Shown piece after piece: positions 24,801 to 55,077 of a DNA stretch of 64,000 nucleotides (positions are counted from its first letter, which is position 1; every line of letters begins with the position of its first letter). Position numbers and translations under genes: made by a program. Source of the stretch: Christensenellaceae bacterium (GTDB lineage Bacteria > Bacillota > Clostridia > Christensenellales > UBA1242); NCBI GenBank assembly GCA_031260975.1, contig JAISKJ010000003.1, positions 1-64,000 on the forward strand, read 5' to 3'. The notes beneath the pieces were generated by a model. That model saw only the letters and a list, made by a program, of their open reading frames with translations, had not been told where the DNA came from and searched no databases.

Positions 24801-27800
24801 CAGAGCAGAGGGATTGTTTAAATTAAACACATATGTCCACACGCCTGCGTTGTAATAACAGCTTTGAGTTAGAATTGTAACTGACGGTGCAGTTGAGTCA
24901 GCGACAGTTGCACTGTCCAAAACAGTTGACAGAAGCGTTGGAACTAGAGTATCCAGCCCCAAATCGGCATCCAGCGTGCTCACAATATTAAGTGTTACGG
25001 TCAGCGGAACATTGGTGTCGGTTATGATGCCTGCTGACAACACAGGGTTTATAATAAGCGGCTCTATTTCATATGTAATCTGTAAATTGGTAGTTGCATA
25101 ATATTGGTTTCCGCCAAACACTGCTATGTAGGTGTATGTAGCGGGACTTATATTGCCGGCTATATGTGCAACATAAAGACCAGAGGTTGATTCATAAGTG
25201 AAAGTTACTCCTGATACAATATTCGCCTTTGCATCAGCATTGACATTGGGTGCGTAGAACAGCTTATCTAGCAGGTTTGTGTAATATGTACTTGCTATTA
25301 CGTCATTAGTAAACGGCCGTGACAGTTCGGCATTATAGAAGAGTGTTTCAAGTCCAGATTTATTAAGGTTAAAGCTCAGTTTAATCGGGCCTCTGTAGTT
25401 TTGGCTTTCAAAGTCTAAAATCAGGCTGGATGGGGTATAGATGGTTCCGTTATTGTTGAATGTAGTAAAAATATTATATGAAGTTATGGTAAACAACGAA
25501 GTAAATTCTATGGTGGATTCACCCAGAACAAGACCTGCTATGGTGCCTAGGCTTATGGCCTTTTCTCCGCTGAGCGAAATGTCATCATAGGTATATGTCC
25601 AACTGCCGCCGGATTTGGTTATACTGGTAAGAGTTACATCATTTATGTTAAAAGTCGCAATTGAGCCCGATAAGTCAATATACTTTTTGTTTACGGTACA
25701 CTCAAGCGGCACAAGCAGTGCCCCTACATCGGGATCGTCACACACAAACACTGCGTATAACGTATACGTATGAGTGTTGGCACTAAGGCTGTTTATTTGT
25801 AGGAGAGACAGAATATTAGCATAAGTTCCGTCGCCGTTACTGAGGCTGCTTATATAAGTCATTGCAGTGCCATAGTCATAAAGGCTCATAGAACTTGGTT
25901 TGTCTGTTAAGAATGCATTAATATCTTCTTCGCTAAACAGCCACCAGCCGGACAGAAGGGTGCCTTCATAATGTATTAGAGGTGCCGAAGAGGCGGCGTT
26001 TTGCCAGTCATAGAAGATAATTGGGAAATATGTTCCGGTGTCTTCATATTCGGCATGTGCAAAGTCGCCGTAGTCAAACTCTATAGGCGAGGTGACTATC
26101 GAAAGCATAGTTACAACAAAAGTTATTCCCGTCTTATATTCGTTGATACCGGTTTGATACCATCTTGCATTCAGCGAAATTCTTATATCATATTGCCCTA
26201 CGCCTGTGGGGGCGTTGGGGGTCCATTTCCATTCGTTTGCGATAAAGAGATAGTATTCAACAACAAAGTCACTAGCTTCCGCTTCGGGCAGTGTGGTTAC
26301 GCTGAGTTTAGTTTTATCTACTTCAACGGGCTGGCCGCCGAAGTAATAACCGGTTATTTCATTGCCGGATATATATCCGCTGTCAATGGATATATCGGTA
26401 GTGAGAACAGTCTCTTTATTCAAAGTTATGGCAACGGCCGTACTCTCAGCAATAGAAGCGTGAGAAGATATTATTCTAAAGTATATTGTACCGGCCGTTA
26501 CGTTCGGGTCGTCATAAACGCTTTTGCCGCCTGTTGTGTCTATAAGTGAAGCAAATGGGTCATTGTCATCGTTGTCAGTAAAGTATGCTATAGAAAGTGT
26601 GCCGGTAAAGTTGTCAATAGCGTTGTTGTAGGGCAGGGCATTGAGTGTTATATTCGGGTTTGTCGGATAAGTAAACGCAAACGGGGTGTTTTGTATGTGA
26701 TCCAAAACCTTTTGGGTGGTTTCGCCCAGACTTAATTTGTCTATAACAAAATTGAAGGATATGCGGAAGGGGGAAGTAATATCTACTATATTTCCTCCGA
26801 AGTTTCCAACAAGCTCAAGATAAGCTATATACGTTCCGGCATCGGTAACTGACGGGGAGTATGAGTTGAAAAATACTCTGAATGTCAGACCGTTTTGTGC
26901 CACTTCAGGACTTGCGGACGCGCTGAAAGTCAGGTTATAGTTATCGCCGCTTATTCCGGTTTTTATGTTATAGGTTTCAAATACTTCATACATATATGTT
27001 GCATTATAAGGCGCGTTTTTAAAGGGTGCATGAACGGTTGCAGGAATATCGCTGACGATTGTGCTCGGAATAATATGTATGGTGTAGGAGTATGTCAGCG
27101 AACCCGAGTCGCTTATGATATAGTATGAGGTTGGGGGTGATGTAACTATTGCAGTGACAGTATATGTCCCCACTTCTCTTGGAGCGTGTGTCATTGTTGT
27201 TCCGCCCTGACTGTAGCTATACCTTATTGTAACAGTGTTTGCTTCCTGATAGGTCACTTCATTTCCGTTAAAGGTTGGTTCCGGTGTAAAGTTAACACCG
27301 GAAGATATCGGACTTGAGGCACCTCTTTGAAGCGGTGCCCATATGTCTGCGTTTATAAAGTTATATGAAGCTCCGTGGGGTTCAACAAAATGAGACCGTT
27401 CCAGAGTGATACGGTTTACTGTAATTGTGCCGGTCAGGTCTATCTTCCTGATATTTCCGCCCACAAAGTTTATGCTGAGCGCCAGCGTTTTGGTGCCGAT
27501 ACTCCCATTGATTGCGTTATACCAAGCGGTTCCGTTGGTAGGGATAAGAGCAAGCCCGTCCATAATACTTATATTAATATATATAAACTCACTTGTTGCA
27601 ATAAGGGGTGTTGATGAATTGTTATCATCATCATATAGATAAGTTACTTCAAACTTGCGGTTTGCTATATCTGAGAGAATAAAGCCTTGAGAGTATATCT
27701 CTTTGAGGATGGCTTTAATATCCGTCATCAGGCCCTTTTCAGCCGATACGAAGGGTGAATTTGTGACAATCATGCTGTCTATAATGTGTGCATATAGTGC

Positions 27801-30800
27801 AGAATCGTTTGCCATCTTATCTTTTGCCACATTGGTCGGCACAAAGGTTATGCCAAGATCGGGGGAATTTTTGGGGTTGATATAAAATCTCTTGCTGTCA
27901 GCGGGCAAGTCACTGTTTCCGCCTGCAATATTTGAGCAGTTCAGAACGATATTCATAATGTAATTACCCGCATTTTCAGGAGCTGCTGAGCCTGAGAAAA
28001 TTGTTCCGTCATTTTGAGTACCGCCAAAAACTATCGAAATTGCGGCAGGGGTTGACGGGGCAGTGATAATCTCTTTTAGTATAATTGCCTGTTTTATGTG
28101 AGAAATCTGAGAGGTTAAATATAAGTTTATTTCGTCTATCAATGCTTGACCTTCATTTTGCCAAACGGTGCTCGGAATTGTCTGACTCATCAATTCGGCG
28201 ATTTGAAGAGATGTTATGAAAACCTCTCCCCACACAAGCCGATAATTGGGTTGGTGCTGAATTCCATCATATCCAAAGTTGGTGGGTGCCAGCAGGGTTG
28301 CCGAGATGTGAGCTTTGTCTATCTTAAACTGAAAAACATCAGTTGAATAATGATTTGTTTGATTTGCTTCAAGCTTGACGTAGTAGGTACCTGCATATAC
28401 ATAAGCAGTGCTGTTAAAAGGCCCTGCCGAGCTTAAGCTGTATCCGAGTGTGGTTATAAGAACGCCGCTGGGGTTTGGAGTTATAACACAGGTTTCAAGA
28501 TTTAGTGCAGTCAGATATTCAAATTGCAGGGTGTTGGGAGTAAAGCTTGTGAACCCTGCCTTTTTTATTGTATATCCTGAAAAGAAGCTTTGACTTACTT
28601 GACCTTCAAGGGTAACATTGGCATTGTTTGCCGTCAGTGTGGCGGCGGAAATATAGAATCCGGCAGCTCTTGGAGATGCGGCACTTGAATATATATTGGC
28701 AATATCCCATTCGTTGGCACCGTCATAATATCTGGCGTTGAGTATGCCAAAAATTGACAGGGTGATTTTTTTGTTGTTTGGATAGGTCGCCACAAAGCTA
28801 TCGTTTTCAATGGTAAATGTGGGCTCGCCTAAACGCTCTAAGAAAATTGTAGGTTCTGAAGGATTACTTGTGGTTATTGAACCGTTTGAATTAAAGGTAA
28901 AGCCGTAGTAAGCATAACTTACGGCAAAAGCACTTACATAGGCTTCGCCCAATACCGCTTTGAGGTTGGTGATGGTGTTTGGATAGGTTGAATTAGTATA
29001 AGTCGGGTGAGTGTCCGTCCAAACGTATGAAAAACTTATGTTTTCATTCATAGTTATTGAGAAGGGGTTTATAGTCAGCATAAGGTTCATAGTATAGTTG
29101 TTGTAGTTCTTAAACTGACCGCCTGTGTCGGCAATTGTATCCGGCACAAAGGTTACGTTTATGCCGGAACTGCCTACAGTAAGGGCGGAATTGTCAAGGG
29201 TGTAATATGTTCCCGGAACATTAAAACTGCCGGTTATCTCGGTGCCTATAGCAAAGTCATGTTTGCCGTTAACATAGGTGTAAGGTGTGCCGTATATAAG
29301 AGAACTTAGTGTGTGAGGCGTGGTTATTGTTGGGTCAATAGGCGTGATGCTTACTGTAACGGGAGCAGACACCATGGGTGAATAGAGAGCTGTTACATCA
29401 GCATCGCCGCTTGAGCTGTCTCTGATTATAAGACTGCTTATATCTAAAGTAACAAGATAGCTGCCTGCATTTTTGGGAGCAACGCTCAAAAGCTGTCCGC
29501 TTGGATAAAGATATCTGAAAGATATTGAGCTCGGGTCAATATATAATCCGGCGGGGGGGCTTATGAGAGTAGCATCGAAAGTCCAGGGAGTGGAGCCGCT
29601 AAAAGGCTTGGTTGTTGTGTTGTCACCAGATATAGCCGTTGCGATTATGCCGACATTAAGATTTGCTACACCTTGGGCAAACACTATGTTCATGGCATCG
29701 TTGAGCGAAATATTATAGCTACTCGTAATATTTGTCCCGCTACCGTTTTGAATAGTTATAGCAATGTCGTTTATGTTGTCTATATAGTGGAGAGTGGGAG
29801 GTGCATTTGTTAGCGTTAAAACCAGACTGCTTACCGCGTCGCTATAGGCAAGTCCGTTGCCGCGGCTGCTGCTAAACACTACAATTGCCTCACTGTCGCT
29901 TGGCAAAGACCCAGTGAATGTTTTTGTAATAAAGCTCAGCGTAACGGGCAGTGGAGAGACAATAAAGCTGGAGCTTGATGCATCAAACTGCAATTGGAAA
30001 TTGCTGCCGAGAGCAAGCGTGTTTTGGTCAAAATAATAGGTTCTCGCAACAAGCGGCGAGGTTGTCGGAGTGTAACTGCCTGAAGTTGCAGAAAGCCTCA
30101 TAGTGCCCGAAAGACTGAGAAGCGGGCTTTCAAGATTATAACTATAGGAGGTTGTATTTACCTGAGCGGTATATAAGAGCTCGGGCACACTATCGCCGTA
30201 AACTATGTTGAGGTTGAGAGGTGCCAGCGTTACCTGCCGCTTTGTGATGGTGTATTTTTTGGCTGTGTATAATATGTTGTAGTTGGCGTTTTTGATGAGT
30301 GTAGTATCTAAAATGTTATATACTCCCACATTTTCTCCGCTTGTAGGCGTACCTCCGGGCAAGCCGTCAGCAGTGCCGCTTAGTGACTTTATCAGACTGC
30401 CTGTTGCAACATTTGCATCAGTGTCGCCATACGGCAGAGTAATGTCAGGTATTTCGTCATTGTCTACGTCAACAAAACTATACCGGAAATCAGGAACAAC
30501 TGCTCCATAGGGTCTCGTGTAGTCTATTGTATTTAGAGAAATATCCATAGGAGTGATTGTCAAAACTCCCGGCACAAAGACGGGTTTATAATAAGCTTTG
30601 TTGATGCCGGCGGATGAAATATTCACTGAATATTCACCCACGGTGTTGTTTGTTTTGGTGCCGCTGTCAGTTCTGGTGTAAGTTACGCTCGTTATGGAAT
30701 TGATGGCTGTGTCACTGCTTATAAAGCCGCCGGCAAGATAGCTGAACGCCGGATCAACGTCGCCGTAAACCTTGGTGGATAGATTGACAGTAAGAGTAAG

Positions 30801-32591
30801 CACTATCTTTTGAATAAACATTTTTGATGAGCCAAAGTATATATCATATTTATTTATATCTAAACTTCCGCCGCCGCCAACTGTGAAGTTATCCTGAAAG
30901 TTGGTAAACTTTTGTGCCACTGTCGCGCTGTATATTTTGTAGGTGTCGTAGGACGGTGTAGTGACAAGGTCCTCGACTCCCAGAAGCGACATAATACTAA
31001 ACCTGTCGCCGCTGACAAGCTCTATGCCGCTAGAGTTTATATTTGGGTTCATCTGCACTCCGTTTATAAACAGGGTATAAGTTATTGTGCCTGTCAGAAC
31101 GGTGTTTTGAATATAACTCTGTAGCGGGTCGTAGGTTTCATAAAGATTACTCATCCCGATTTGCACCACATTCTGAAGAATGCTGAATATGTGTCCGGTG
31201 CTGACTAGCTTCAGAGTGTAATTTTGATATGCAGCACTGTTGATTTCTTCGCCGTCAACAATGCTTCCGCCTGTCAGGTGATAGGCATAAGTTCCGACAA
31301 GTTCGCCTGCGGAACGCAAAAGAAGATTGCCGAATACAACTCCGTCGTTAACGGTGTTGTTGCCGAGAGAATATCCGAATACGGGGTCAGCGGCCCCTGC
31401 AAATTTCTGTCCGCCTGCACCCGGATAAACGCTTATTACTCTCTTGGTGACTATGTATGAAGCGTCCTCTGTTGCGGTTATATCAAGATTATTTGATGTT
31501 AGGCTGCCGGTTGATATGGTATATGTTCCGGCACTTGGCATAGCTCCGCCCGTGTTAACGGTTAGAAGCCCCAGCACGCTGCTATAAAATCTTGAATCAT
31601 TAAGAAGAGTATTAGTGCTGTTATATATTTCAAATTCAAGCGGAGACAGAGCCTCGCCGTATATGCTGGTTTTAGCTATAGCTTTAATTCTTATCGGCTT
31701 TTTAGCTATGGTGAGCGTTCCGTTTGAAATGCTTGAAAGGGTATAGTTATATTTGCCGGCAGAAGTGTCGACAAGGCTGGTTATATAATTCTGTTCGTCA
31801 AAAGCGAATATTTGGGTTTGGGGGCTCAGGGTATATATTGCTACGTTTTCGTTGGTGCCGCCAAGAATTTCAAATATTAGTTGCTCACTGCCCACAAGTC
31901 CGGTGACATTATAGTTGAATGTGGGGTTGGGGTCAAGATATTCTTTTTGAAAGTTTCCTATGGTGATGCTTATAGGCTTAGGCAAAATTTTAAGCGTGGT
32001 ATAGTTGCTGTCGGCAGTGCCTTCAAGCTCTACATAAACTCTGTAAATTCCGGCATCGGTAGGGGCGTCTCTGGTCGGTTCATTGCCCGAGGTATAATAT
32101 TCGCCGCCAGACAGTGTTCCGGTAAATTTATAAACCAAATTACCATTTGCAGTCGACCACCCATCTACATAGGTTTGATGAGCATTTCCGTCATATGTCA
32201 CAGTGAGGGGGTTCATTTCAAGCTGACGGCTTAAATTTCTCACCGAAAAACTTATTGATGATTTTACATTGGAGGTATCCTTGCTTATAGCGGTTATGGT
32301 TACAAAACCTGCGGCAACAGGAGTTACTCTTCCGTTTGAATCAACGGTTGCAATATTTTCATTACTTGAATACCACACAAGCCGCCCTTTGTCAGCATTT
32401 TCCGGTTCAAGCGCTGCGTTTATATTAAACGGTTCGTTTATATAAACATATTCAACGTTTATTTCTGGCTGAAGCCTTATCGCTGTTATGGCGGGCGCTT
32501 TTGGCACTATAAAATAGATGCCGAGCCCGATGGCCACAAGTGTCGGAATAACAATTAAAAGTGAAATCAATAATTTTTTCTTTATTGTCAT
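21825..32591 (-). CDS. Giant N-terminally anchored MBG/Ig-repeat surface protein (3588 aa)
   Basis: The start is ATG at 32591 behind AAAGGAG. A longer in-frame start at 32681 has no ribosome site. A basic tip and a membrane segment (residues 9-30) act as an uncleaved signal-anchor or signal peptide. A bacterial Ig-like (Big_2) domain covers about residues 40-120 (WYSSNENIATVDSNG, then VTITA). The remainder is a long run of MBG-type beta repeats recognisable by YDG, 'NAGTYT', 'TITK' and 'ITP' phrases (for example TVTYDGNAH, TDAGIYRVYVEL). There is no LPXTG or sorting tail; the protein ends in a plain hydrophobic/aromatic FYITVW. It probably works as a long adhesin or envelope fibre. The frame is intact across 10.8 kb. 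Confidence 0.85.
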   Translation of the reverse strand: MTIKKKLLISLLIVIPTLVAIGLGIYFIVPKAPAITAIRLQPEINVEYVYINEPFNINAALEPENADKGRLVWYSSNENIATVDSNGRVTPVAAGFVTITAISKDTSNVKSSISFSVRNLSRQLEMNPLTVTYDGNAHQTYVDGWSTANGNLVYKFTGTLSGGEYYTSGNEPTRDAPTDAGIYRVYVELEGTADSNYTTLKILPKPISITIGNFQKEYLDPNPTFNYNVTGLVGSEQLIFEILGGTNENVAIYTLSPQTQIFAFDEQNYITSLVDTSAGKYNYTLSSISNGTLTIAKKPIRIKAIAKTSIYGEALSPLEFEIYNSTNTLLNDSRFYSSVLGLLTVNTGGAMPSAGTYTISTGSLTSNNLDITATEDASYIVTKRVISVYPGAGGQKFAGAADPVFGYSLGNNTVNDGVVFGNLLLRSAGELVGTYAYHLTGGSIVDGEEINSAAYQNYTLKLVSTGHIFSILQNVVQIGMSNLYETYDPLQSYIQNTVLTGTITYTLFINGVQMNPNINSSGIELVSGDRFSIMSLLGVEDLVTTPSYDTYKIYSATVAQKFTNFQDNFTVGGGGSLDINKYDIYFGSSKMFIQKIVLTLTVNLSTKVYGDVDPAFSYLAGGFISSDTAINSITSVTYTRTDSGTKTNNTVGEYSVNISSAGINKAYYKPVFVPGVLTITPMDISLNTIDYTRPYGAVVPDFRYSFVDVDNDEIPDITLPYGDTDANVATGSLIKSLSGTADGLPGGTPTSGENVGVYNILDTTLIKNANYNILYTAKKYTITKRQVTLAPLNLNIVYGDSVPELLYTAQVNTTSYSYNLESPLLSLSGTMRLSATSGSYTPTTSPLVARTYYFDQNTLALGSNFQLQFDASSSSFIVSPLPVTLSFITKTFTGSLPSDSEAIVVFSSSRGNGLAYSDAVSSLVLTLTNAPPTLHYIDNINDIAITIQNGSGTNITSSYNISLNDAMNIVFAQGVANLNVGIIATAISGDNTTTKPFSGSTPWTFDATLISPPAGLYIDPSSISFRYLYPSGQLLSVAPKNAGSYLVTLDISSLIIRDSSSGDADVTALYSPMVSAPVTVSITPIDPTITTPHTLSSLIYGTPYTYVNGKHDFAIGTEITGSFNVPGTYYTLDNSALTVGSSGINVTFVPDTIADTGGQFKNYNNYTMNLMLTINPFSITMNENISFSYVWTDTHPTYTNSTYPNTITNLKAVLGEAYVSAFAVSYAYYGFTFNSNGSITTSNPSEPTIFLERLGEPTFTIENDSFVATYPNNKKITLSIFGILNARYYDGANEWDIANIYSSAASPRAAGFYISAATLTANNANVTLEGQVSQSFFSGYTIKKAGFTSFTPNTLQFEYLTALNLETCVITPNPSGVLITTLGYSLSSAGPFNSTAYVYAGTYYVKLEANQTNHYSTDVFQFKIDKAHISATLLAPTNFGYDGIQHQPNYRLVWGEVFITSLQIAELMSQTIPSTVWQNEGQALIDEINLYLTSQISHIKQAIILKEIITAPSTPAAISIVFGGTQNDGTIFSGSAAPENAGNYIMNIVLNCSNIAGGNSDLPADSKRFYINPKNSPDLGITFVPTNVAKDKMANDSALYAHIIDSMIVTNSPFVSAEKGLMTDIKAILKEIYSQGFILSDIANRKFEVTYLYDDDNNSSTPLIATSEFIYINISIMDGLALIPTNGTAWYNAINGSIGTKTLALSINFVGGNIRKIDLTGTITVNRITLERSHFVEPHGASYNFINADIWAPLQRGASSPISSGVNFTPEPTFNGNEVTYQEANTVTIRYSYSQGGTTMTHAPREVGTYTVTAIVTSPPTSYYIISDSGSLTYSYTIHIIPSTIVSDIPATVHAPFKNAPYNATYMYEVFETYNIKTGISGDNYNLTFSASASPEVAQNGLTFRVFFNSYSPSVTDAGTYIAYLELVGNFGGNIVDITSPFRISFNFVIDKLSLGETTQKVLDHIQNTPFAFTYPTNPNITLNALPYNNAIDNFTGTLSIAYFTDNDDNDPFASLIDTTGGKSVYDDPNVTAGTIYFRIISSHASIAESTAVAITLNKETVLTTDISIDSGYISGNEITGYYFGGQPVEVDKTKLSVTTLPEAEASDFVVEYYLFIANEWKWTPNAPTGVGQYDIRISLNARWYQTGINEYKTGITFVVTMLSIVTSPIEFDYGDFAHAEYEDTGTYFPIIFYDWQNAASSAPLIHYEGTLLSGWWLFSEEDINAFLTDKPSSMSLYDYGTAMTYISSLSNGDGTYANILSLLQINSLSANTHTYTLYAVFVCDDPDVGALLVPLECTVNKKYIDLSGSIATFNINDVTLTSITKSGGSWTYTYDDISLSGEKAISLGTIAGLVLGESTIEFTSLFTITSYNIFTTFNNNGTIYTPSSLILDFESQNYRGPIKLSFNLNKSGLETLFYNAELSRPFTNDVIASTYYTNLLDKLFYAPNVNADAKANIVSGVTFTYESTSGLYVAHIAGNISPATYTYIAVFGGNQYYATTNLQITYEIEPLIINPVLSAGIITDTNVPLTVTLNIVSTLDADLGLDTLVPTLLSTVLDSATVADSTAPSVTILTQSCYYNAGVWTYVFNLNNPSALPNGTYWLTIPANFGMSSGIFFGTSSASPTTMPIPFVVDNAMDITKDIGAVFFGDSLSSGALLSKLENAYNYTDGQLDSAEWLNSFYENSGAYLETGGSGTIYTNTNNYLLGTNYIISPLSVAPLYYTYLKNTEKDAIAEDIGTSTTIQDLINAGYATYWDLTTDGIYFGLNGGGGSHSLATGGTLNFVDMPVRMIFTGGGEVIILVSFTLYFDFAITYNDNTPYVYSSGVSQGPDKTKFNVLRQGFKYTNSGGSNLSGTATVVSMSGASIGNNVSVSYSQSPHINAGSYTATATYTPGGNYGQPYSLTVPFVIEKQPLAITMTNQTISYGDNFSTSGWATSSEGSNFTYTWNGLSYMPTDAGKYTIKAEWTGNSNYTGITYATLTILPITPTVMVDPSGSQLDPTEPKIKIDNVSYSYSALPSGINAQFFDAENYIPGSSLAQGLPLVAGNNYIVVVNINKGVTYNDNFLPATFSIGYSIPPEPPIDPEEYNLWIEITNTVHVYDGSAKAINAVLMNGDAISELIASTDYTINIIYYLGGSPINTGLNPIIDAGYYAAVITVTFISEPYYTDIGLLTRDTTMVIQKTYFDVDTGSVSATYNTGVINHNIVYVKNVFDTSLVLNTDYTVSIANSSGLPASMQNAGIYTITIAPISGYATNYEPYIFKFTIAPYAVSFTLGASSINGSTYDGTNKTVTVDWSAYETAFGIITKPNLNWSGAVFVSPSSIGASVVAAGNYTVSATINDANFVGTTSVQFVIQKKQITLSQTKFEAYWLPDITWTTVLDNASFNIGGIIPGDTLNVNSLNFNLTVNPSSTWGSFIQDVKTYQATITCIHTNYTGSLMFNFKINQSTVKVMYDTSVSNNGQTLVDINDITFKSHTYTPYDPLNDPYEHANFFEFGRLKYIFNGNTAAPVAIISGSSLINISTEGNIFTYTNRGTPSYSPLDILSAYSYRVNNYISLFILTASLNSYANSNNMQFDINTDVFYITVW

Positions 32592-32748
32592 TTTGCAACT
32601 CCTTTGGTAATTTTGTGCATCTCTTGTGGCAAGTGTGAAGCACAGAAGCCCTCTAAAGTAGTATATATAATATAATAACATATTATAGGCCTCTTTAGCA
32701 AAAAGTTTGAGGCACTTTGTTGTTTCAAAACCCCTTTTAAACGGTTGA

Positions 32749-35191: not shown

Positions 35192-36154
35192 ATGAGAAAA
35201 AAACATCAAATAAATTTTTTAGATGAGGATATTGACTCGAATAATTCCAAGCTCTTAACAGAGGCAGAAGAAAGTGAGAAAGAACTTATGTTTAAAGAGG
35301 CAGAGCAAAGAGGAAAGACATTTAACGGCTTGTCTGCAAAAGAGTGGGCAGGATTTAGCCGCAGTGTATGGAATGATGTTTCATCAGTACGGGCAAATCG
35401 TCATTTAATGCATGGGGCGACCTATCCTGAAAAACTTTGTGACAGGGTTATTCGTATGTATTCAAAAGAAGGAGATATTGTTTTAGATCCCTTTCTCGGA
35501 ACGGGAACAACCTCGTTAGCGGCCATAAAAGCTAAACGCAATGCAATAGGCATAGAACTAAACGACAAGTTTTTTGCTGTGTCAGAGCAGGAAATAAATA
35601 ATGTTATGGTGGGCAGCAGCACGCTTTTTGGTGAGGTTAAAATAACATCTCAAACAATCAAAGGTGATTGTACAGAAAAATTGGATGATTTGGATGATGA
35701 GATTATTCAGATCACCTTTACATCTCCGCCGTATGCGGATTTGATACATAAGGTTGAAGAGGATAGAGCAAAGAGGCATAAAAACTCAGCCTTTGTTTTT
35801 GAGAATAATTCAAAAACCAAAAAGTATTCGGATGATGAGCGTGACCTTGGCAATATGCCGCTTGGTCAATACTTGGATGCTGTTGGCGCTATAATGAAAA
35901 AATTATACAAAAAAACCCGAAAGGGCGGATATAATATTTGGGTAGTAAAGGATTATAGGGATATGCAAAACGAAATCCCGTATGTTGATTTGCACTCTAT
36001 GATTGCAAAAGCGGGAGTGGATGCAGGATTTAAGTATCACGATTTAATTATATGGGACCAAAATCAGCACAGGAAATTGGTTTTGCTGGGCTATCCTTCA
36101 AGGTTTTATGTAAATCAAAATCATTCTTATTTGGTGGTGCTCAGAAAATGGTAA
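35192..36154 (+). CDS. Type II DNA amino-methyltransferase, first of two
   Basis: 320 residues from the ATG at 35192, which lies downstream of the -10 box and behind AAGGCGG. The AdoMet-binding motif DPFLGTGTT is at about residues 99-107, and the catalytic motif TSPPY at about 177-181. That makes it an N4-cytosine or N6-adenine amino-methyltransferase; the TSPPY form is more frequent in N4-cytosine enzymes. It shares an ATGGTAA overlap with a second methyltransferase, so the two are translationally coupled. It is the modification arm of the cassette. The recognition sequence cannot be deduced. Confidence 0.88.
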   Translation: MRKKHQINFLDEDIDSNNSKLLTEAEESEKELMFKEAEQRGKTFNGLSAKEWAGFSRSVWNDVSSVRANRHLMHGATYPEKLCDRVIRMYSKEGDIVLDPFLGTGTTSLAAIKAKRNAIGIELNDKFFAVSEQEINNVMVGSSTLFGEVKITSQTIKGDCTEKLDDLDDEIIQITFTSPPYADLIHKVEEDRAKRHKNSAFVFENNSKTKKYSDDERDLGNMPLGQYLDAVGAIMKKLYKKTRKGGYNIWVVKDYRDMQNEIPYVDLHSMIAKAGVDAGFKYHDLIIWDQNQHRKLVLLGYPSRFYVNQNHSYLVVLRKW

Positions 36155-37245
36155 ATACAGAAAATGCCAGAAAATTGGATAAAATCCATTCATATCCCGC
36201 CAAGTATACAATAGAAATGATTGAAGGGTATATCAAAGAATACAGCTCGGTTAACGATATCGTGTATGACCCTTTTGTTGGCTGCGGAACAACGCTTCTT
36301 GCTTCTAATATAAACGGCAGAATAGCATATGGAAGCGATATAAACGGTATAGCAATACTTATATCAAAATTTAAGATTACACCTTATAACAATAAAGACA
36401 TTTTGGGGCTTAACACTTTTATAAATACACTAAACCAAAAGTGTAAGACAGAAACTAACTGCCTCAAAAAACATTACGTGTCAATAAATCATTGGTTTAA
36501 TAATGAAGCTATAGATGCTCTTTCGCTGTTGCGTCAAATTATGGAAAATGAATTTAAAAATAATGACAGGGCATTGTTGTTTGCAAAGGTTGTTTTCTCG
36601 TCGATTTTGACGTCCGTTTCAAATCAGGAAAGCAATACGCGTTATGCCGCCAAAGATAAAAAAATTACGTTTGATGATGTAATAAATATATATATAAAAA
36701 AGTTTAGACAAATTTTAGAAATCATTAGCAGTATTAAATATAACGACTGTGTTTTTAAAAGTGCAGCAGTGCAGATTAATTCTAAAGCATCAAGCAAAAA
36801 TTTTGGCGAAAATTCGGTTGACCTAATAGTCACTTCGCCGCCCTATCCCAATACTTATGATTATTATCTCTATCATAAGCATCGTATGCTTTGGCTTGAT
36901 TATGCTGTTGAAGATGTTATGGAGCAGGAAATAGGTTCCAGAAGAGAATTTTCAAGCCTAAAAAAACCTTCGGAGAAATTTACGCAGGACATGACAGAAG
37001 TGTTCTTGGATTGTGATAAGATGCTTAAAGCGGGTAAGTATGCTGTAATAATTATTGGAGACGGGCAGATAAGAGGAAAGAAGTATGACAGCAAAGAAAA
37101 TATTATTAAAATCGCCAAGGATATCAATTGGCGGCTGGTGTCCGAAAGCTGCACAAGCTTGGACGAAACCAGCAGAACCTTTCAGCAATCTTTCAGAACA
37201 AAAGGAAAATTAGAACATGTGCTTATTTTTCAAAAAGAAGTATAG
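36148..37245 (+). CDS. Type II DNA amino-methyltransferase, second of two
   Basis: 365 residues. The ATG at 36148 overlaps the stop of the first methyltransferase; a longer frame from 36052 would be out-of-frame overlap. It has IHSYPAKY near the N-terminus, AdoMet motif DPFVGCGTT at about residues 41-49 and catalytic TSPPYPNTYDYY at about 229. About 180 residues, likely holding the target-recognition domain, separate the two motifs. Two different methyltransferases next to one endonuclease are typical of type II systems with asymmetric sites, where each strand needs its own enzyme. Confidence 0.87.
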   Translation: MVNTENARKLDKIHSYPAKYTIEMIEGYIKEYSSVNDIVYDPFVGCGTTLLASNINGRIAYGSDINGIAILISKFKITPYNNKDILGLNTFINTLNQKCKTETNCLKKHYVSINHWFNNEAIDALSLLRQIMENEFKNNDRALLFAKVVFSSILTSVSNQESNTRYAAKDKKITFDDVINIYIKKFRQILEIISSIKYNDCVFKSAAVQINSKASSKNFGENSVDLIVTSPPYPNTYDYYLYHKHRMLWLDYAVEDVMEQEIGSRREFSSLKKPSEKFTQDMTEVFLDCDKMLKAGKYAVIIIGDGQIRGKKYDSKENIIKIAKDINWRLVSESCTSLDETSRTFQQSFRTKGKLEHVLIFQKEV

Positions 37246-48493: not shown

Positions 48494-48524
48494 AAAAAAA
48501 CCTCTCATATGAGAGGTTTTTTTT
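48494..48524. terminator. Bidirectional terminator
   Basis: Perfect stem AAAAAACCTCTC/GAGAGGTTTTTT with loop ATAT, between gatB and the convergent surface-protein gene. Confidence 0.9.
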
Positions 48525-48532
48525 GTTGTTTA

Positions 48533-51500
48533 TCATGGATATTTAATGTTTCCGAAGCTGGTTGGGTTAAGAGCATACATAGTATTGAAATTATAGGCCA
48601 CGCCGTATTTATTTTGGTCAAAGGCTATGTTTCCGTATATGTCCACCTTAGCTTCAAGTGAGCCCGACTTTGCATTAATCCTGATTTTATCAATAAACAG
48701 ATTGTTCAGCAAATACTTTCCGTTTTTAAGAGATGTAGTTGCCTTGAAGTGAGTGTAATAAGTTGAGTCATAAGGGTTCATCATCTTAACTAAAGTCAGC
48801 TGTTGCAAGTCAAAGTCTACTCGATATTCTTTGTTGCTTCCGTTTTGAGTGTAGGTATAGTTTTTGATTACTTTCTCAATCTTGGTCGGTCCGTCTATAT
48901 ATTCAACATCCGCTCTAAATTGCTCCATAATGTCATTGGTGAAGCCGCAGATATCCTGAATAAGCACAAACACATCCATGTTACTTGGGTCGTGACGGGC
49001 TTTTATATAATCTGTTGCGTTCTTAGCTCCAATACCTAAGAAACCGCCCGTTTTATATGTTGTTGTTCTGTCTACATATATCATCGGTCTGCCCTCAAGC
49101 CTGTCGGTGATATATATTTTTACGGAGTGGTTTGTTGTGTTGGAGTTTGCATTACTTGGCTCATTTATGTTTTGAACACCGATAAGCCCGAACAGGCTGA
49201 CATTTCTTCCGGGAAGTGTAAGACTTATCATAGCCTCAAAGCTTCCGTCCTCGTGCAGTTTAAACTCTGCATTTTGTATTGTAAGCCTCAGTTCACAGCT
49301 TGCTATGTTATATGCGTTAAGGTTAATGTTTATGTAACTGCCGCTTGCTATACCCATGTTGTAACTTTGCTCAGAGGCATTATAGCTGGTCTGAATTGTG
49401 TCATCAACCTCACCTAAGAAGTTTGCAAGGGTTGAGAAGTCCATATAATTTCCAGGATCTGCGGGTGCGCGTGCAATTGAAGGTATCGTGTCAACAGTAA
49501 TGCCGGTAAGGTTCATATAAATGCCTTCGCCCACCTTAAGTCCATACATGTCAAGCTGCAATTTCTGACCGTTAAATTGTATTTCAATAGTGATGATGTT
49601 TTCTCCCCACTGATAGTTAAGCAGGCTTCCGATATCAAGGTCAAGCGAAATCTTGCCGGTTTGGTCCATAGTGAGGCTGGTGATAAGAGGAGCGTAATTG
49701 CGCAGAATTCCAAAGATATCTATGCCTTCTTCACCCATTTCTTCCATACCACTGCTGGCAAGTGCCAAATCTATCATCATATCGTGGTTGTCATTAAACA
49801 ATACCGCATCCAGAATTTCTTGGAAGCCTGAAGTATCGAGATAGTGGGGCAGGGCGAACTTGGCTGTTTCAAATACTTCTCTTATATTGGATTTATTCAT
49901 TTGTCCCTTAAGTCCGTTGGTATTAAGATACAGGTGTCCGTCTCCCGGTGCACTTGTCTGCGGGTCGGGAGGATTGCTGTAATACCATGCTTCAAGGGTC
50001 TGAGGGTATCTTACCCATTGGTCATATAATGCACCACGTCCTGAGGCTGCAATGTTTATGTGCAAAGCTTCAAGAAGTATGTTTTCGGGGCCAAACAGTT
50101 CGAATGACAAGTCTTGAATGTCAAGCAGAACGCGACTGAGAGCATTGTCATAAACGCTTGCGCCATAAGATACACCGTAGTTGTCGCGTGCCTTGTTTGT
50201 TTCAGAAGCATAGTTCAGATCGGCTTCGTATATGCCTATCTGACCAAGGAACTGATATTGGTCGGTTGCTTCATTTTTAAAGTCTTCAATAAGCTGTGAT
50301 ATTTCGTCCATATACTTTGTAAGCTCAACATACCGCAGATAGCCGTCTCTTGAAGCCTGGTCTATGTCGGGTATGGTTATACCCCCCACCTGACTTATAA
50401 ACAGAGTAGCCACAATGTCGGTGTATACAAAGTTTATTTCACTGATAAGCCCGCCCTGATTTTTAATCTGAAGCATTGTGCTGCTGTCAAAGTTAATAGT
50501 AAGCGTGCTGCCGTTTGCAGTCATACTTTGCAGGAAGCTGACATTAATATCCTGCAGGCTCAGTTTCTTTGCCATATCAATCAGCTGGTCGGGTATTGAA
50601 AGCTCTGTTCCGAACTTATCGTTTATGTATGTTACAAGTTCTTTAATATCATCATAAGTGGCCTGAAGTTTTACGCCGTCAAGCTCTATAAAGATGATAC
50701 CGTCCTGCAGGGTGATAATAATGCTGTGTCCATACATTTGCATTGAAAGCTGAAGAATAAGGTTGCTGTCAACAAAGCTTATTATATAATCAAAGTTGAA
50801 TGTTTCTTGTGAGCCGTTGTAAACAAATGATATTTGTCCCGTTCCGCTAACAGTAAGGTTTGCAAGAGTGTTGACCAGCGCCTTAATGGTGGGGAATAGG
50901 TCATCCCAATTTGTGCAGTTTAAAGGAGCGGATATCGCTGGCTGACGTGAGGCAACAGCTGCGCTGATTGCTGCATCTTGGGTATTAACATTTATGTCGG
51001 TGATTTTTCCGTCTGAAGTTGTGAGCTCAAAACTTATGTCTCTGAACGCACCGCTTATTATGTCACCAAAGGTCATAGCCTTAAGTGCATTATAAATTTC
51101 CATGACGGTGAGCTCTTCAGTATTTTCAAAGGTGTCGGTGATTTGTTCGAGCAAATCGTCTATAGCTTCAAGGTTCATGTTGGTCAATGTGTCAAACAAT
51201 TCGTTCTGGGCGTAGTCTAATATCTCGTCAAGCTGACTTAGCGTGCAGCTGATTTTGATTTCGCCAAACACCAGATATATAGTGTCGTTGATATAGGTGA
51301 TATTGAGCGGACTGCCAAAACTATTTGAAGTAATATTTACTTTTAAACCATCTCTGAAGTCAATGTCTATTGCCGCTTCGATTGTGTAACTGTCGTATTG
51401 AACTGCCACATCAAAAGCGAGTGTTTTTGAACTGACAGTAGCTTCAATTGTTTCAAGCAGGTCAATAAAGTTGTCTGCGTTGAGATAGTCGCTGTTGTCG

Positions 51501-53995
51501 GTTGGAAGCGCATCAAACGCTGAAATTTGTTCAATTGAAACCATGCTGTCAAAAGCATTGATAACAATGTTGTCACCCAGAGTAACGCTGATTGTCTGCC
51601 CATTTATATTGAGTGTCAGCACCAGATTTCCGCTGTTTGTGAGAGTTATACTTTCAATCTTTTCTATATATTGTTCAAACAAATCAATTTGTGAGCTTAA
51701 TGACTCAGGAATTTCATCAAGCAGGGTGCTCGGGTTTTGCAGAAGTGAAATATATTCTTCAAAGGGTTCAAGCAAGGTAGAATAGTCGTAATAATTTGGT
51801 AGCTTATCTGCAACAAAACTTAATAGTTGTTCTATCTTGCCTGATGAAACGCTGACCTTATAGTCACCGTACTGCACATAGAATACACCGCTACTGTAAT
51901 ATAATGTTGCATTGTAGGTTGTGCCGTCGATTATTACGTCAACTATGCTCACACTGTCATAAGTTTGGATATTTATTGAAGTAATCAGGTTGATTGCAAC
52001 CGCTGTGCCGTTGGCGTTGAAACTGAACTGCCCCGAAACCTTTAGGTTGTCGGCGCGTGCCAGATCAATGAATTTGCCGATTTGCTCAACGATTATACTA
52101 TAGTTAATATACTCATTTTTGTCTATAACAGGAAAGGTTACATTATTTGTATTTATTGAAAGACAAGCGTTGATACCTCCGTTTATAAATGAAATGTTGC
52201 TGAGAAGTCCGCCTGAATGGTTAAGAGTAATTCTTGTGCCGTCGCTAAGGAGTATGCTAAGTCCGTTTATTAATGGTTTAATTTCGCTTATGAACTGAAC
52301 CGAGATGTCTTTTAGGTATAGTTGTGTCAGCATATTGATATCAGGCAGATTTACTTCAAACCCAAAGGTAGAGCTAAGAAGTCTCATCAGACCTCCAAAA
52401 TCCTCCGGAGAGCTTACGTATACCTTTATTCCGTCAATAGCAAAATATACTGCACTGTCGGTATAGGTTAAGTTAATTGTTTTGCCGCCGAATACGGTGC
52501 TGAGGTTAATCACAGGCGCGCCGTTTTGCCACTTTGCGCTGTAGTTAAACTCAAGGTTGCGTATGTCATTTTTAATATACAATGTTCCGCTGAAAGTAAG
52601 CTTGTTTGCGGTGTCAGCAGCAGCCTTAAGGGTGGGGTAGATTTCATTAAAGTTAAGATATTCACTGCCGTTTACGGGATTTAGATTTCCGGTGTTTTTG
52701 ATATTACTCAGGGTTACTGATACGTTGTCTGAACTAATGATTATCTGAGAAATATTTTCGTCAGAAGTCTCTATATGTATTGTTGCAGACCCTACTTCCA
52801 ACATAAACCAGTTGTCATATATGTCAACGCTATAGGCCAGAGCAATCAGCTGTGTGATTTGTTCTAGGGTTATGTTGCCGGTGTCAATGTTGATATTCAG
52901 CATATCAAGATATTCGTCAATGGTTGAGAGAGCATCGTTTATTTCGGGTATATTAAGTTCACCCAATGTTGACCCTATGCTTTGATATAGGTCCAATAAT
53001 TTAGTAAGGTCTTTAACACTGCTTTTTATTTTAATGCCGCCAAACTGAGTGTAAACCATTTCATTTGCGTATGTAAAAGAAAGCAGATCGCCAAAGCTGT
53101 TGCTAGTGACGGTTGTCTGAAGGTTTTTAAGGTCAACCTGAGCGTTAAACTTAATGCTTTGACTGAACAGATTTATGTCACTTCCGTAGTTTACGGTTGC
53201 AATAAAGTCTAAGAAGTTGTTCTTCACAAGATTTTTAAAGCAGCCCAGAAGTTTTGAAATATATTCTCCGTCTTTATAAGATGCAAGCTGGGGTGTTGCC
53301 ACTTGATTGGTTTCAAGCTTGCTCAGTTCTGCCTTAAGGTCTATGCTAAGGCCGCCCTGCTTTATGCCGGGAATTATAATTTCGGTTATGCTATAGTCAT
53401 TATCCAGCTTCAGCATTACGTCAATGCCGAATACGCTGAACGACACACTTTTTTCTCCGTTTTGTTCAAACTCCTGATATTCTTCAAACATAGCGGCTAT
53501 CATGTTCATATCAAAATTGTCAAACGAAGGAAGTGTTATAGGTTCAAGCCCCAGAAGCTCGGTAATCATGCCCACTGCACTCATAAGATTGTTTGTGGTA
53601 AAGTGCATCTTGCTGCCGTCAATATCCAAAAACAAATCGGAGTCAATCAGAATAAGCCCTACCGTCAAACTTTGACCGTCTAAAACAACAGTGGCGGTTC
53701 CTGAGGCATCAAGCTCGCTGAATGTGTTTCGGGCGTTTAGGTTGAGGTCCAGCAATATTTTAATATCCTGTGAGCCTTCTTGTTTTATGTTGATTTCAGC
53801 GTTTATGTTATAGTTTTCGTTGCTTGTCAGGTTTGTAATTGCGTCGGTGATGAAAGAGGTTTCAATTTCCGGATTTGTCGGCCGCATATTTGAAGGAGCG
53901 TTTGTAGGAGTAAACAATATAACACCTACGGCAGTGACTGCAGCCATTGCCAGATAACATAAAAAATATCTTAATCCTTTTCTCATTGTTTTCAT
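48533..53995 (-). CDS. Large exported repeat protein (1820 aa) with unknown beta-rich units
   Basis: The start ATG is 7 bases after AAAGGAG. It opens with basic residues and a membrane segment (residues 11-28), then is extracellular. Most of the length is made of degenerate repeats. Each has a 'SGT..F..NG' strand, a 'TYxDxxIYxxxDGIK(V/L)' strand, a helical stretch with 'LxxLxxxxG...LPD', then 'LxLxDIxVxFI' and a 'GGLISxI' turn. At least six units can be followed by eye. The style recalls LolA/LppX-like lipid-binding sheets, but I cannot assign the family. No sortase signal is present. Near 49,900 it contains GQMNKSNIREVF, related to GQLNKNNIQQLF of the neighbouring gene. The two genes form an operon with a 12-base gap. 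Confidence 0.75.
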   Translation of the reverse strand: MKTMRKGLRYFLCYLAMAAVTAVGVILFTPTNAPSNMRPTNPEIETSFITDAITNLTSNENYNINAEINIKQEGSQDIKILLDLNLNARNTFSELDASGTATVVLDGQSLTVGLILIDSDLFLDIDGSKMHFTTNNLMSAVGMITELLGLEPITLPSFDNFDMNMIAAMFEEYQEFEQNGEKSVSFSVFGIDVMLKLDNDYSITEIIIPGIKQGGLSIDLKAELSKLETNQVATPQLASYKDGEYISKLLGCFKNLVKNNFLDFIATVNYGSDINLFSQSIKFNAQVDLKNLQTTVTSNSFGDLLSFTYANEMVYTQFGGIKIKSSVKDLTKLLDLYQSIGSTLGELNIPEINDALSTIDEYLDMLNINIDTGNITLEQITQLIALAYSVDIYDNWFMLEVGSATIHIETSDENISQIIISSDNVSVTLSNIKNTGNLNPVNGSEYLNFNEIYPTLKAAADTANKLTFSGTLYIKNDIRNLEFNYSAKWQNGAPVINLSTVFGGKTINLTYTDSAVYFAIDGIKVYVSSPEDFGGLMRLLSSTFGFEVNLPDINMLTQLYLKDISVQFISEIKPLINGLSILLSDGTRITLNHSGGLLSNISFINGGINACLSINTNNVTFPVIDKNEYINYSIIVEQIGKFIDLARADNLKVSGQFSFNANGTAVAINLITSINIQTYDSVSIVDVIIDGTTYNATLYYSSGVFYVQYGDYKVSVSSGKIEQLLSFVADKLPNYYDYSTLLEPFEEYISLLQNPSTLLDEIPESLSSQIDLFEQYIEKIESITLTNSGNLVLTLNINGQTISVTLGDNIVINAFDSMVSIEQISAFDALPTDNSDYLNADNFIDLLETIEATVSSKTLAFDVAVQYDSYTIEAAIDIDFRDGLKVNITSNSFGSPLNITYINDTIYLVFGEIKISCTLSQLDEILDYAQNELFDTLTNMNLEAIDDLLEQITDTFENTEELTVMEIYNALKAMTFGDIISGAFRDISFELTTSDGKITDINVNTQDAAISAAVASRQPAISAPLNCTNWDDLFPTIKALVNTLANLTVSGTGQISFVYNGSQETFNFDYIISFVDSNLILQLSMQMYGHSIIITLQDGIIFIELDGVKLQATYDDIKELVTYINDKFGTELSIPDQLIDMAKKLSLQDINVSFLQSMTANGSTLTINFDSSTMLQIKNQGGLISEINFVYTDIVATLFISQVGGITIPDIDQASRDGYLRYVELTKYMDEISQLIEDFKNEATDQYQFLGQIGIYEADLNYASETNKARDNYGVSYGASVYDNALSRVLLDIQDLSFELFGPENILLEALHINIAASGRGALYDQWVRYPQTLEAWYYSNPPDPQTSAPGDGHLYLNTNGLKGQMNKSNIREVFETAKFALPHYLDTSGFQEILDAVLFNDNHDMMIDLALASSGMEEMGEEGIDIFGILRNYAPLITSLTMDQTGKISLDLDIGSLLNYQWGENIITIEIQFNGQKLQLDMYGLKVGEGIYMNLTGITVDTIPSIARAPADPGNYMDFSTLANFLGEVDDTIQTSYNASEQSYNMGIASGSYININLNAYNIASCELRLTIQNAEFKLHEDGSFEAMISLTLPGRNVSLFGLIGVQNINEPSNANSNTTNHSVKIYITDRLEGRPMIYVDRTTTYKTGGFLGIGAKNATDYIKARHDPSNMDVFVLIQDICGFTNDIMEQFRADVEYIDGPTKIEKVIKNYTYTQNGSNKEYRVDFDLQQLTLVKMMNPYDSTYYTHFKATTSLKNGKYLLNNLFIDKIRINAKSGSLEAKVDIYGNIAFDQNKYGVAYNFNTMYALNPTSFGNIKYP

Positions 53996-54007
53996 ATCTG
54001 TACTCCT

Positions 54008-54982
54008 TTATCTTGCGGGCATAGCAACTTCACTTATGAAGTCAAATGTCTGTGTGAGAGTTGCGTGGCACCGCGGAGAGATTGCGCCGAACTTCATGTT
54101 ATAATATTCATCAATTTTAGTTTGATAGAATACAATTTTTCCGTCATCAAGAACGGTAAGAGTGATATCTAACACAATATCTTGAGTAAATGTAGGGGGG
54201 TCGGTCAGTCCGCTTACCGTAACCATCTGGGTTGCATATTCTATAACTGAATAAACTCTGTCGAGTGTCAGTTTGAAGTTATATCCCACTCTGCCGTTGT
54301 TAAGAGTTATTTTTTTAAAGGTTTCTATGTCCGCAGTTTTGTCTATCAGGGTTGCACTGGATACTATATAAGGACAAAGGTTTGTTATAGGAAGACCATA
54401 TTTGTCAGCGTATTCCGATTCTGCATAGGTGACCGATTCTCCGCCGGAATAATTCCCCAGAGTCCCGCTCATAAAGTCTTCAAATCGGTCCTTGTTTGTA
54501 AAACTTCCCAAAGTTACTGAAATTTGATTGAGGTCATTATAATGGGTCAGCTCCACTACGTCCTTGGCACCCTTAGAAAAACTTTCAGCATAAAATTTAT
54601 AGCCCGTAGTGCTGCTTGCGTCATATTTTTTATAGCCTCTGATTTCTTGCTTTGCAATAGTGTCAACAAGTCCTACTGATTTAAGGGTGTATTTATTGGC
54701 TGTTTCGCTGTTTCGCTGCGCTGCCAAAAAGAGCTGCTGAATGTTATTCTTGTTAAGCTGCCCCTCACTTGGCGTCAAAAATGACTGATAATAGTTAAGG
54801 CTTAGGCTTCCGTTTTGCTGCCTGAAATAGACAGGATCATAAGCCGAGTAGTCTATCATCTCTCCTCCTGCCAAATTTTTGACCCACCACACGCCTATAA
54901 AAATGCCCGTTGCGGCTCCAAGAACAATCATAACCACCAGCGCCGTGAGGCCTTGCTTGGTCATCTTAACAGCTTTTGCCAT
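54008..54982 (-). CDS. N-terminally anchored exported protein, partner of the 1820-aa protein
   Basis: 324 residues with GGGAG before the ATG. A basic tip and a membrane helix (about residues 11-33, Val/Gly/Ile-rich) place the remaining 290 residues outside the cell. The extracellular part is beta-rich, with the phrase GQLNKNNIQQLFLAAQR shared in modified form with the downstream gene. A promoter (TTGACT-N18-TATAAT, minus strand) lies about 65-95 bases upstream. It is the first gene of a two-gene operon. I recognise no known domain. Confidence 0.7.
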   Translation of the reverse strand: MAKAVKMTKQGLTALVVMIVLGAATGIFIGVWWVKNLAGGEMIDYSAYDPVYFRQQNGSLSLNYYQSFLTPSEGQLNKNNIQQLFLAAQRNSETANKYTLKSVGLVDTIAKQEIRGYKKYDASSTTGYKFYAESFSKGAKDVVELTHYNDLNQISVTLGSFTNKDRFEDFMSGTLGNYSGGESVTYAESEYADKYGLPITNLCPYIVSSATLIDKTADIETFKKITLNNGRVGYNFKLTLDRVYSVIEYATQMVTVSGLTDPPTFTQDIVLDITLTVLDDGKIVFYQTKIDEYYNMKFGAISPRCHATLTQTFDFISEVAMPAR

Positions 54983-55047
54983 ATATTTTTTCTCCCGTTA
55001 TTTTTTTAATTTTTAATTAATGTCACACATGCATTAATTGTTCACTC

Positions 55048-55077
55048 ATTATAATACATTGTGGTTGACAAAGTCAA
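55048..55077 (-). promoter_or_regulatory. Promoter of the two-gene exported-protein operon
   Basis: Minus strand TTGACT (55077-55072), 18-base spacer, TATAAT (55053-55048), directed at the gene starting at 54982. Confidence 0.7.

Follow-up and report, generated by a model that had tools for sequence, protein, structure and literature searches.

A membrane-anchored tandem array of predicted LolA-type domains and its single-domain partner in a Christensenellaceae bacterium

Two neighboring genes in the 64,000-nucleotide stretch of DNA analyzed here (the window) raise the question of what a giant exported protein built from an unassigned repeating unit might do, and whether the smaller protein encoded just upstream is part of the same system. 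The larger protein is designated P1 and the smaller P2. The genes and their candidate signals are as follows.

48494-48523, listed on the plus strand, near-symmetrical: terminator-like stem of 13 pairs flanked by A and T runs, directly 3' of P1
48533-53995, minus strand: P1 gene, 1820 aa, with an N-terminal hydrophobic segment, seven repeat units and a C-terminal tail
54003-54009, minus strand: ribosome-site-like AAAGGAG before P1, found by eye
54008-54982, minus strand: P2 gene, 324 aa, with an N-terminal membrane helix and one predicted LppX/LprG-like domain
54992-54996, minus strand: ribosome-site-like GGGAG before P2, found by eye
55048-55077, minus strand: promoter-like site before P2, TTGACT, 18 bases, TATAAT, an 11/12 consensus match

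P2 lies upstream of P1 on the same strand, with 12 bases between them. Because a promoter-like site, two ribosome-site-like sequences and a terminator-like stem accompany the pair, the genes are probably a single transcription unit, a reading that draws on consensus matches only. Promoter-like sites around the locus number 29 against 19.0 +- 3.5 expected, by consensus match only and in an AT-rich region, and terminator-like sites (four found, 5.3 expected) are not in excess. The original prediction of a two-gene unit of exported proteins stands: both open reading frames are present, both products are exported and membrane-anchored, and the repeat falls below every Pfam cut-off. Neighbors include gatA/gatB-like genes (recognized by eye), a short membrane protein for which no Pfam family exceeds its cut-off, and a GDPD gene. 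The glycerophosphodiester phosphodiesterase gene (PF03009; 56309-57100, minus strand) shares the strand of P2 and lies 1.3 kb upstream of it, separated from it by an opposite-strand ORF. Elsewhere in the window, 21825-32681 (minus strand) encodes a protein of 3618 aa carrying Big_2 and MBG repeats, probably another surface protein. A 1275-aa protein at 17595-21422 matches DUF4011, AAA helicase and MTES_1575 nuclease models, and an N6_N4 DNA methylase is encoded 15 kb further on (36052-37245, plus strand); these two are possibly defense or restriction genes.

Plain self-BLAST of P1 leaves its repeats undetected, so profiles were needed. A unit profile made without the window sequence identifies seven units of ~190 aa (full-sequence E-value 2e-104, per-domain E-values from 3e-5 to 1e-29), and the same profile reports nothing at E<=10 in reversed P1 or in 50 shuffled copies. 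Pairs of window units that align over at least 75 residues are 19-40% identical, as computed on trimmed units. The repeats, originally put at six or more in the 1820-residue protein, are thus real but diverged, and number seven by profile. All are on the minus strand.

53267-53848, minus strand: P1 unit 1, residues 50-243, by unit profile
52637-53281, minus strand: P1 unit 2, residues 239-453, by unit profile
52079-52663, minus strand: P1 unit 3, residues 445-639, by unit profile
51557-52048, minus strand: P1 unit 4, short, residues 650-813, by unit profile, low-confidence in the model
50951-51490, minus strand: P1 unit 5, residues 836-1015, by unit profile and structural match
50354-50911, minus strand: P1 unit 6, residues 1029-1214, by unit profile and structural match
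49556-50299, minus strand: P1 unit 7, diverged and terminal, residues 1233-1480, a weak match
48536-49555, minus strand: P1 C-terminal tail, residues 1481-1820

Unit 7 scores 1e-5 with a window-seeded profile and 3e-5, over residues 1352-1482 only, with the window-free one. The tail has no Pfam match at E<=0.001. Applied more widely, the window-seeded profile detects units in 49 of 55 P1-like proteins, 369 matches in all; the remaining six are candidates from three genomes (G013, G306 and G020).

Sequence searches do not place either protein in a known family. Window P1 and P2 both fall below Pfam and NCBIfam cut-offs, and the unit proved as unplaceable as first judged, with no unit reaching a Pfam cut-off. 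The LppX/LprG Pfam model has no match in window P1 or P2 up to an E-value of 10; it is absent among the 15 weak families listed for 23 P2 sequences, and is not among the matches listed for 38 units (25 of 45 weak families). Searching PDB sequences gave no match for the P2 profile and two, at chance level, for the unit profile.

Predicted structures are more informative. The AlphaFold model of P2, built from 23 sequences, has pLDDT 81 and pTM 0.78 and divides the protein into two parts.

54869-54958, minus strand: P2 membrane helix, residues 9-38, a helix in the model and a hydrophobic stretch
54014-54754, minus strand: P2 ectodomain, residues 77-323, predicted LolA fold superfamily, LppX at Z 12.1

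LppX, the best structural match (Z 12.1), aligns over 179 of 183 residues at an rmsd of 4.0, followed by LprG (Z 11.8) and LprF (Z 10.3). Lower matches are RseB (Z 8.9, range 8.6-8.9) and a LolA-type carrier (8.6), with a sponge ependymin-type protein and an unrelated porin both at Z 8.2. Foldseek also ranks LprG first (E-value 1.9e-5), with low TM-scores of 0.28 and 0.41. As a whole, the model of P1 residues 640-1820, built from 19 sequences, is weak (pLDDT 57, pTM 0.38). In units 5 and 6 the strands lie mostly at pLDDT 70-88, against 51-65 for the loops and helices between. Each of these two units is modeled as a helix, six strands, helices and then four or five strands. Unit 5 (model residues 199-387) matches LppX (Z 11.4) and LprF (Z 11.0); for unit 6 (model residues 394-584) LolA chains score about 9-10. 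Forty-eight of the 50 structural matches listed for the P1 model carry LolA-superfamily names, the other two being a DUF1329 protein and an uncharacterized one. Foldseek matches of P1 include unrelated large beta proteins as well, and LppX at a TM-score of 0.56 by target. The model places the units relative to one another with low confidence, and units 5 and 6 match LolA-type clams separately.

Assignment of the P2 ectodomain and of P1 units 5 and 6 to the LolA fold superfamily, nearest to LppX, LprF and LprG, is thus well supported by the predicted models. The original view that the unit resembles LolA/LppX sheets only in style was right about the likeness and wrong about its depth, the fold itself being present in the predicted structures. 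The assignment comes from models for P2 and units 5-6, and from sequence homology to those units for units 1-4 and, weakly, unit 7, which would bring the window's total of LolA-type domains to eight. Profile comparison finds no sequence similarity between P2 and the P1 units (probability 0.2), so their kinship is read from the predicted fold alone. In the accessible portions of the open-licence literature, no description of tandem LolA-type arrays was found. The fold is already known; the novelty is the array and its partner. This locus very probably encodes a membrane-anchored tandem of LolA-type domains and their conserved partner, a single-domain protein.

The partnership was originally suspected from a motif, GQxNKxNI, that occurs in both window proteins (P2 residue 74, P1 residue 1364) and was taken for a common domain or partner interface. 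That explanation was rejected: the motif is private to the window genome, found in one of 55 P1-like and one of 11 P2 sequences scanned, each the window's own. The suspicion itself was right on other grounds, since adjacency and fusion are kept across genomes. In a survey of 63 P2-bearing genes (from 61 picked regions plus the window), P1 lies directly downstream in 34, and in 15 P1 units are fused behind P2. No adjacent P1 was detected for the other 14 entries, in 13 genomes; one of these regions (G381) stops at a contig edge. In G013 and G306 the P2 domain closes one large exported protein with a second such protein beside it, and in G048 a 2177-aa protein begins with it; in none of these large proteins does the unit profile find a match. 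Gaps between P2 and P1 range from -10 to 363 bases across the surveyed genomes. Among 22 loci in named records, partly from the same genomes as the 63-gene survey, 21 have P1 next to P2, and all come from records labeled uncultured Clostridia, Christensenella, Clostridiales, Firmicutes or Eubacteriales. The exception (L142), which lacks P1, has a P2 cut by the contig start and then a gene on the opposite strand.

P2 profile matches occur in 167 of 309 genomes of the window's family, in 79 of 297 sampled genomes of the order and in nine of 291 genomes of the class. A strong class-level match in another order (G647) has the same P2-P1 pair (L155:4170-10415, plus strand), possibly by horizontal transfer or a binning error. 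Two further class-level matches outside the order (G840 and G809) were discounted, being weak and confined to the first ~90 profile positions.

Some P2 loci carry additional sequence. A gene of ~250 aa stands directly upstream of P2 (L030:10501-11250, minus strand; genomes G034, G029, G007, G279, G277 and G218), its homologues recognized through similarity; it is a cut piece in G064 and is missing at the window locus. By eye its product looks like a member of the RAYT/Y1 transposase family, seemingly without that family's HUH histidines. None of four tested reached a Pfam cut-off, and a match to a streptococcal superantigen (E-value 3e-4) was taken as chance. An extra N-terminal part of ~240-270 aa precedes P2 in G001 (L034:3407-5068, minus strand) and G025 (L037:1959-3620, minus strand), and P2 proteins of similar lengths occur in G283 and G284. 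The G001 part matches Methyltransf_23 above its cut-off; for the G025 part no methyltransferase model was reported.

In all 63 P2-bearing proteins, a hydrophobic stretch of 19 residues (mean Kyte-Doolittle at least 1.7) either lies close to the N-terminus or precedes the P2 domain. No lipobox is seen in window P2 by pattern or in window P1 by eye. Omp85 was not found in the window genome (control 7/14), so a single membrane is likely, on one marker, and no sortase anchoring was found, with a control positive in only three of 14 genomes.

A clue to function comes from a sister family in the same order (f6), in which P2 homologues are lone proteins, 12 of 12 with a lipobox by pattern (called genes, nine of 11 genomes). 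A divergent DegV gene adjoins the P2 homologue or homologue pair in all 11 matched f6 genomes, which are related and therefore do not count as 11 independent events. These genomes have one to three DegV genes each, and in four the P2-adjoining one is the only one. PAP2 occurs in nine of the 11 stretches and an AMP-binding acyl ligase in eight, by similarity to the genes of G402 (Pfam names were checked for G402 and G581); G444 and G508 keep DegV while lacking both PAP2 and the ligase. In G647, outside the order, genes for an HGSNAT-type acyltransferase and an AMP-binding protein come after the pair. The window's own pair has no DegV, ligase or PAP2 gene beside it.

The window genome (97% complete) has no detected ketoacyl synthase PF00109 (control 14/14) and no PF08545 (control 10/14), that is, no FabF- or FabH-type synthase, and this small gut-type bacterium appears, from its gene content, unable to make its own fatty acids. 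Encoded in the genome are a Dak2 domain of the kind found in FakA and, away from the P2/P1 locus, four DegV genes. Across 29 genomes tested, PF00109 is missing in 27 and PF08545 in 28, and Dak2 is present in 28. The synthases are likewise missing from the eight family members in the test set where P2 went undetected, so the array is neither needed for scavenging nor a marker of it. FakB is described as binding fatty acids through DegV (PMC12288450).

The fold, the f6 neighborhood and the missing fatty-acid synthases together suggest that the array may serve a fatty-acid scavenger by catching or relaying fatty acids or acyl lipids, a reading to which we give a probability of roughly 0.45. LolA-type clams in characterized relatives often hold lipids or lipoproteins. 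P2 and P1 would be partners that are anchored in the cell membrane and lie mostly outside it, P2 as one LppX/LprG-like clam next to the membrane and P1 as a string of seven clams of the same superfold extending away from it. Outside the cell, the string would capture fatty acids or other acyl lipids and hold them, or pass them clam to clam through the wall, and P2 would deliver them to the membrane for activation by a FakA-type kinase with DegV/FakB proteins. Ligand, direction, hand-over and reach through the wall are what we infer here. Several results weigh against this reading: the weak overall model of P1, the low Foldseek TM-scores, the window locus with neither DegV nor ligase nor PAP2 beside the pair, the synthase-lacking family members in which P2 went undetected, and the 14 surveyed entries for which an adjacent P1 was not detected. 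The LolA fold, moreover, serves non-lipid roles as well, VioE being an example (PMC6363788). The more specific proposal, that a chain of alternating LolA-type units relays host or dietary fatty acids through the wall to membrane-proximal P2 and so feeds bacteria without fatty-acid synthesis of their own, is tentative and rather doubtful.

The repeat units sort into two types, defined without reference to position, that tend to alternate along the protein: of 209 internal steps, 134 change type, compared with 98.2 +- 6.0 in shuffles, none of 2000 reaching 134. With one protein from each of 14 genera the count is 46 of 60 (35.1 +- 3.4 in shuffles, five of 5000 reaching it). The window's family shows this alternation clearly; in many fused proteins it is weak or absent. 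The lowest unit number, three, is that of a complete gene (G239), and the highest, at least 16, that of a gene cut by the stretch end (G500). Seven of 47 proteins contain units that share 60% identity or more with one another, mostly in blocks spaced two or three units apart; since most of these genomes are drafts, such units could reflect assembly error. Such widely varying number and growth by block duplication would suit a surface rod, an adhesive or spacer fiber of LolA-type domains that have lost lipid binding and in which unit number sets length. The tails of nine of nine relatives scanned, but not that of window P1, contain List_Bact_rpt, a repeat known from surface proteins. A rod would leave the conserved single-domain P2 superfluous, and it sits poorly with f6, where P2 homologues are lone lipoproteins among lipid genes; we consider it unlikely.

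Another reading has the traffic running outwards. LprG is described as binding triacylglyceride and moving it between membranes, with LprG-Rv1410 moving it outwards (PMC4709180), and LolA hands lipoproteins to LolB mouth to mouth (PMC13078400); the pair could likewise export a lipid, lipoprotein or lipid-linked polymer from membrane to surface. With no Omp85 found, however, there is probably no outer membrane to supply, and the genome appears dependent on incoming fatty acids, which makes outward traffic decidedly unlikely. The anchored, long P1 with its repeated beta units of ~190 residues also recalls bridges with one continuous hydrophobic groove, of the AsmA or VPS13 type, a family described in eukaryotes and, as AsmA-like proteins, in Gram-negative bacteria. 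Units 5 and 6 each match a complete LolA-type clam, with its own helices, in the predicted model, which disfavors a continuous groove and makes it very improbable. Least credible is an RseB-like envelope sensor in which P2 binds a ligand and signals inwards. RseB is among the structural matches of P2, and in some relatives of P2 a long N-terminal part precedes the helix, which in one includes a methyltransferase domain, but window P2 has just eight residues ahead of its helix, and the large P1 would be left unexplained.

To our knowledge, how outside fatty acids, which are poorly soluble, pass the wall of Gram-positive-type bacteria that rely on them is little understood. A dedicated membrane-anchored array of lipid-carrier fold in genomes with no detected fatty-acid synthase would make that passage directly testable, and a large, fast-evolving class of giant proteins outside Pfam coverage gains a likely fold together with a role that can be tested. 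What computation shows is the anatomy, the homology of the repeats, the predicted fold, the conserved pairing and fusion, the f6 neighborhood and the lack of a detected ketoacyl synthase.

Among known systems, LppX, LprG and LprF of mycobacteria are closest, with the same predicted fold as the P2 ectodomain and P1 units 5 and 6. Like P2 and P1 they are exported and membrane-anchored, and the lone f6 homologues of P2 are, by pattern, lipoproteins as they are; window P2 and P1, in contrast, have no lipobox and do not match the Pfam model, and a single clam per protein is replaced here by a tandem array with a partner. The Rv1410c efflux pump gene adjoins LprG, and none of its kind adjoins P2 or P1 at the window locus. 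LolA and LolB share the superfold, and their hand-over, as described in PMC13078400, offers a model for a relay; they are a soluble shuttle and an outer-membrane receptor in diderms, whereas here the chains are anchored and Omp85 was undetected. EPDR1 (ependymin-related protein), the top structural match of P1 unit 6 (Z 11.4), is a LolA-fold protein outside the Lol pathway according to PMC6363788; unlike P1 it is a single-domain animal protein, dimeric and with disulfides. AsmA and VPS13 bridges, proposed lipid carriers, resemble P1 in being long, anchored and made of repeated beta units, but have a continuous groove where the units of P1 look like separate LolA-type clams. A clam-to-clam relay, if true, would be a new lipid conduit, unlike either these grooves or single shuttling LolA proteins.
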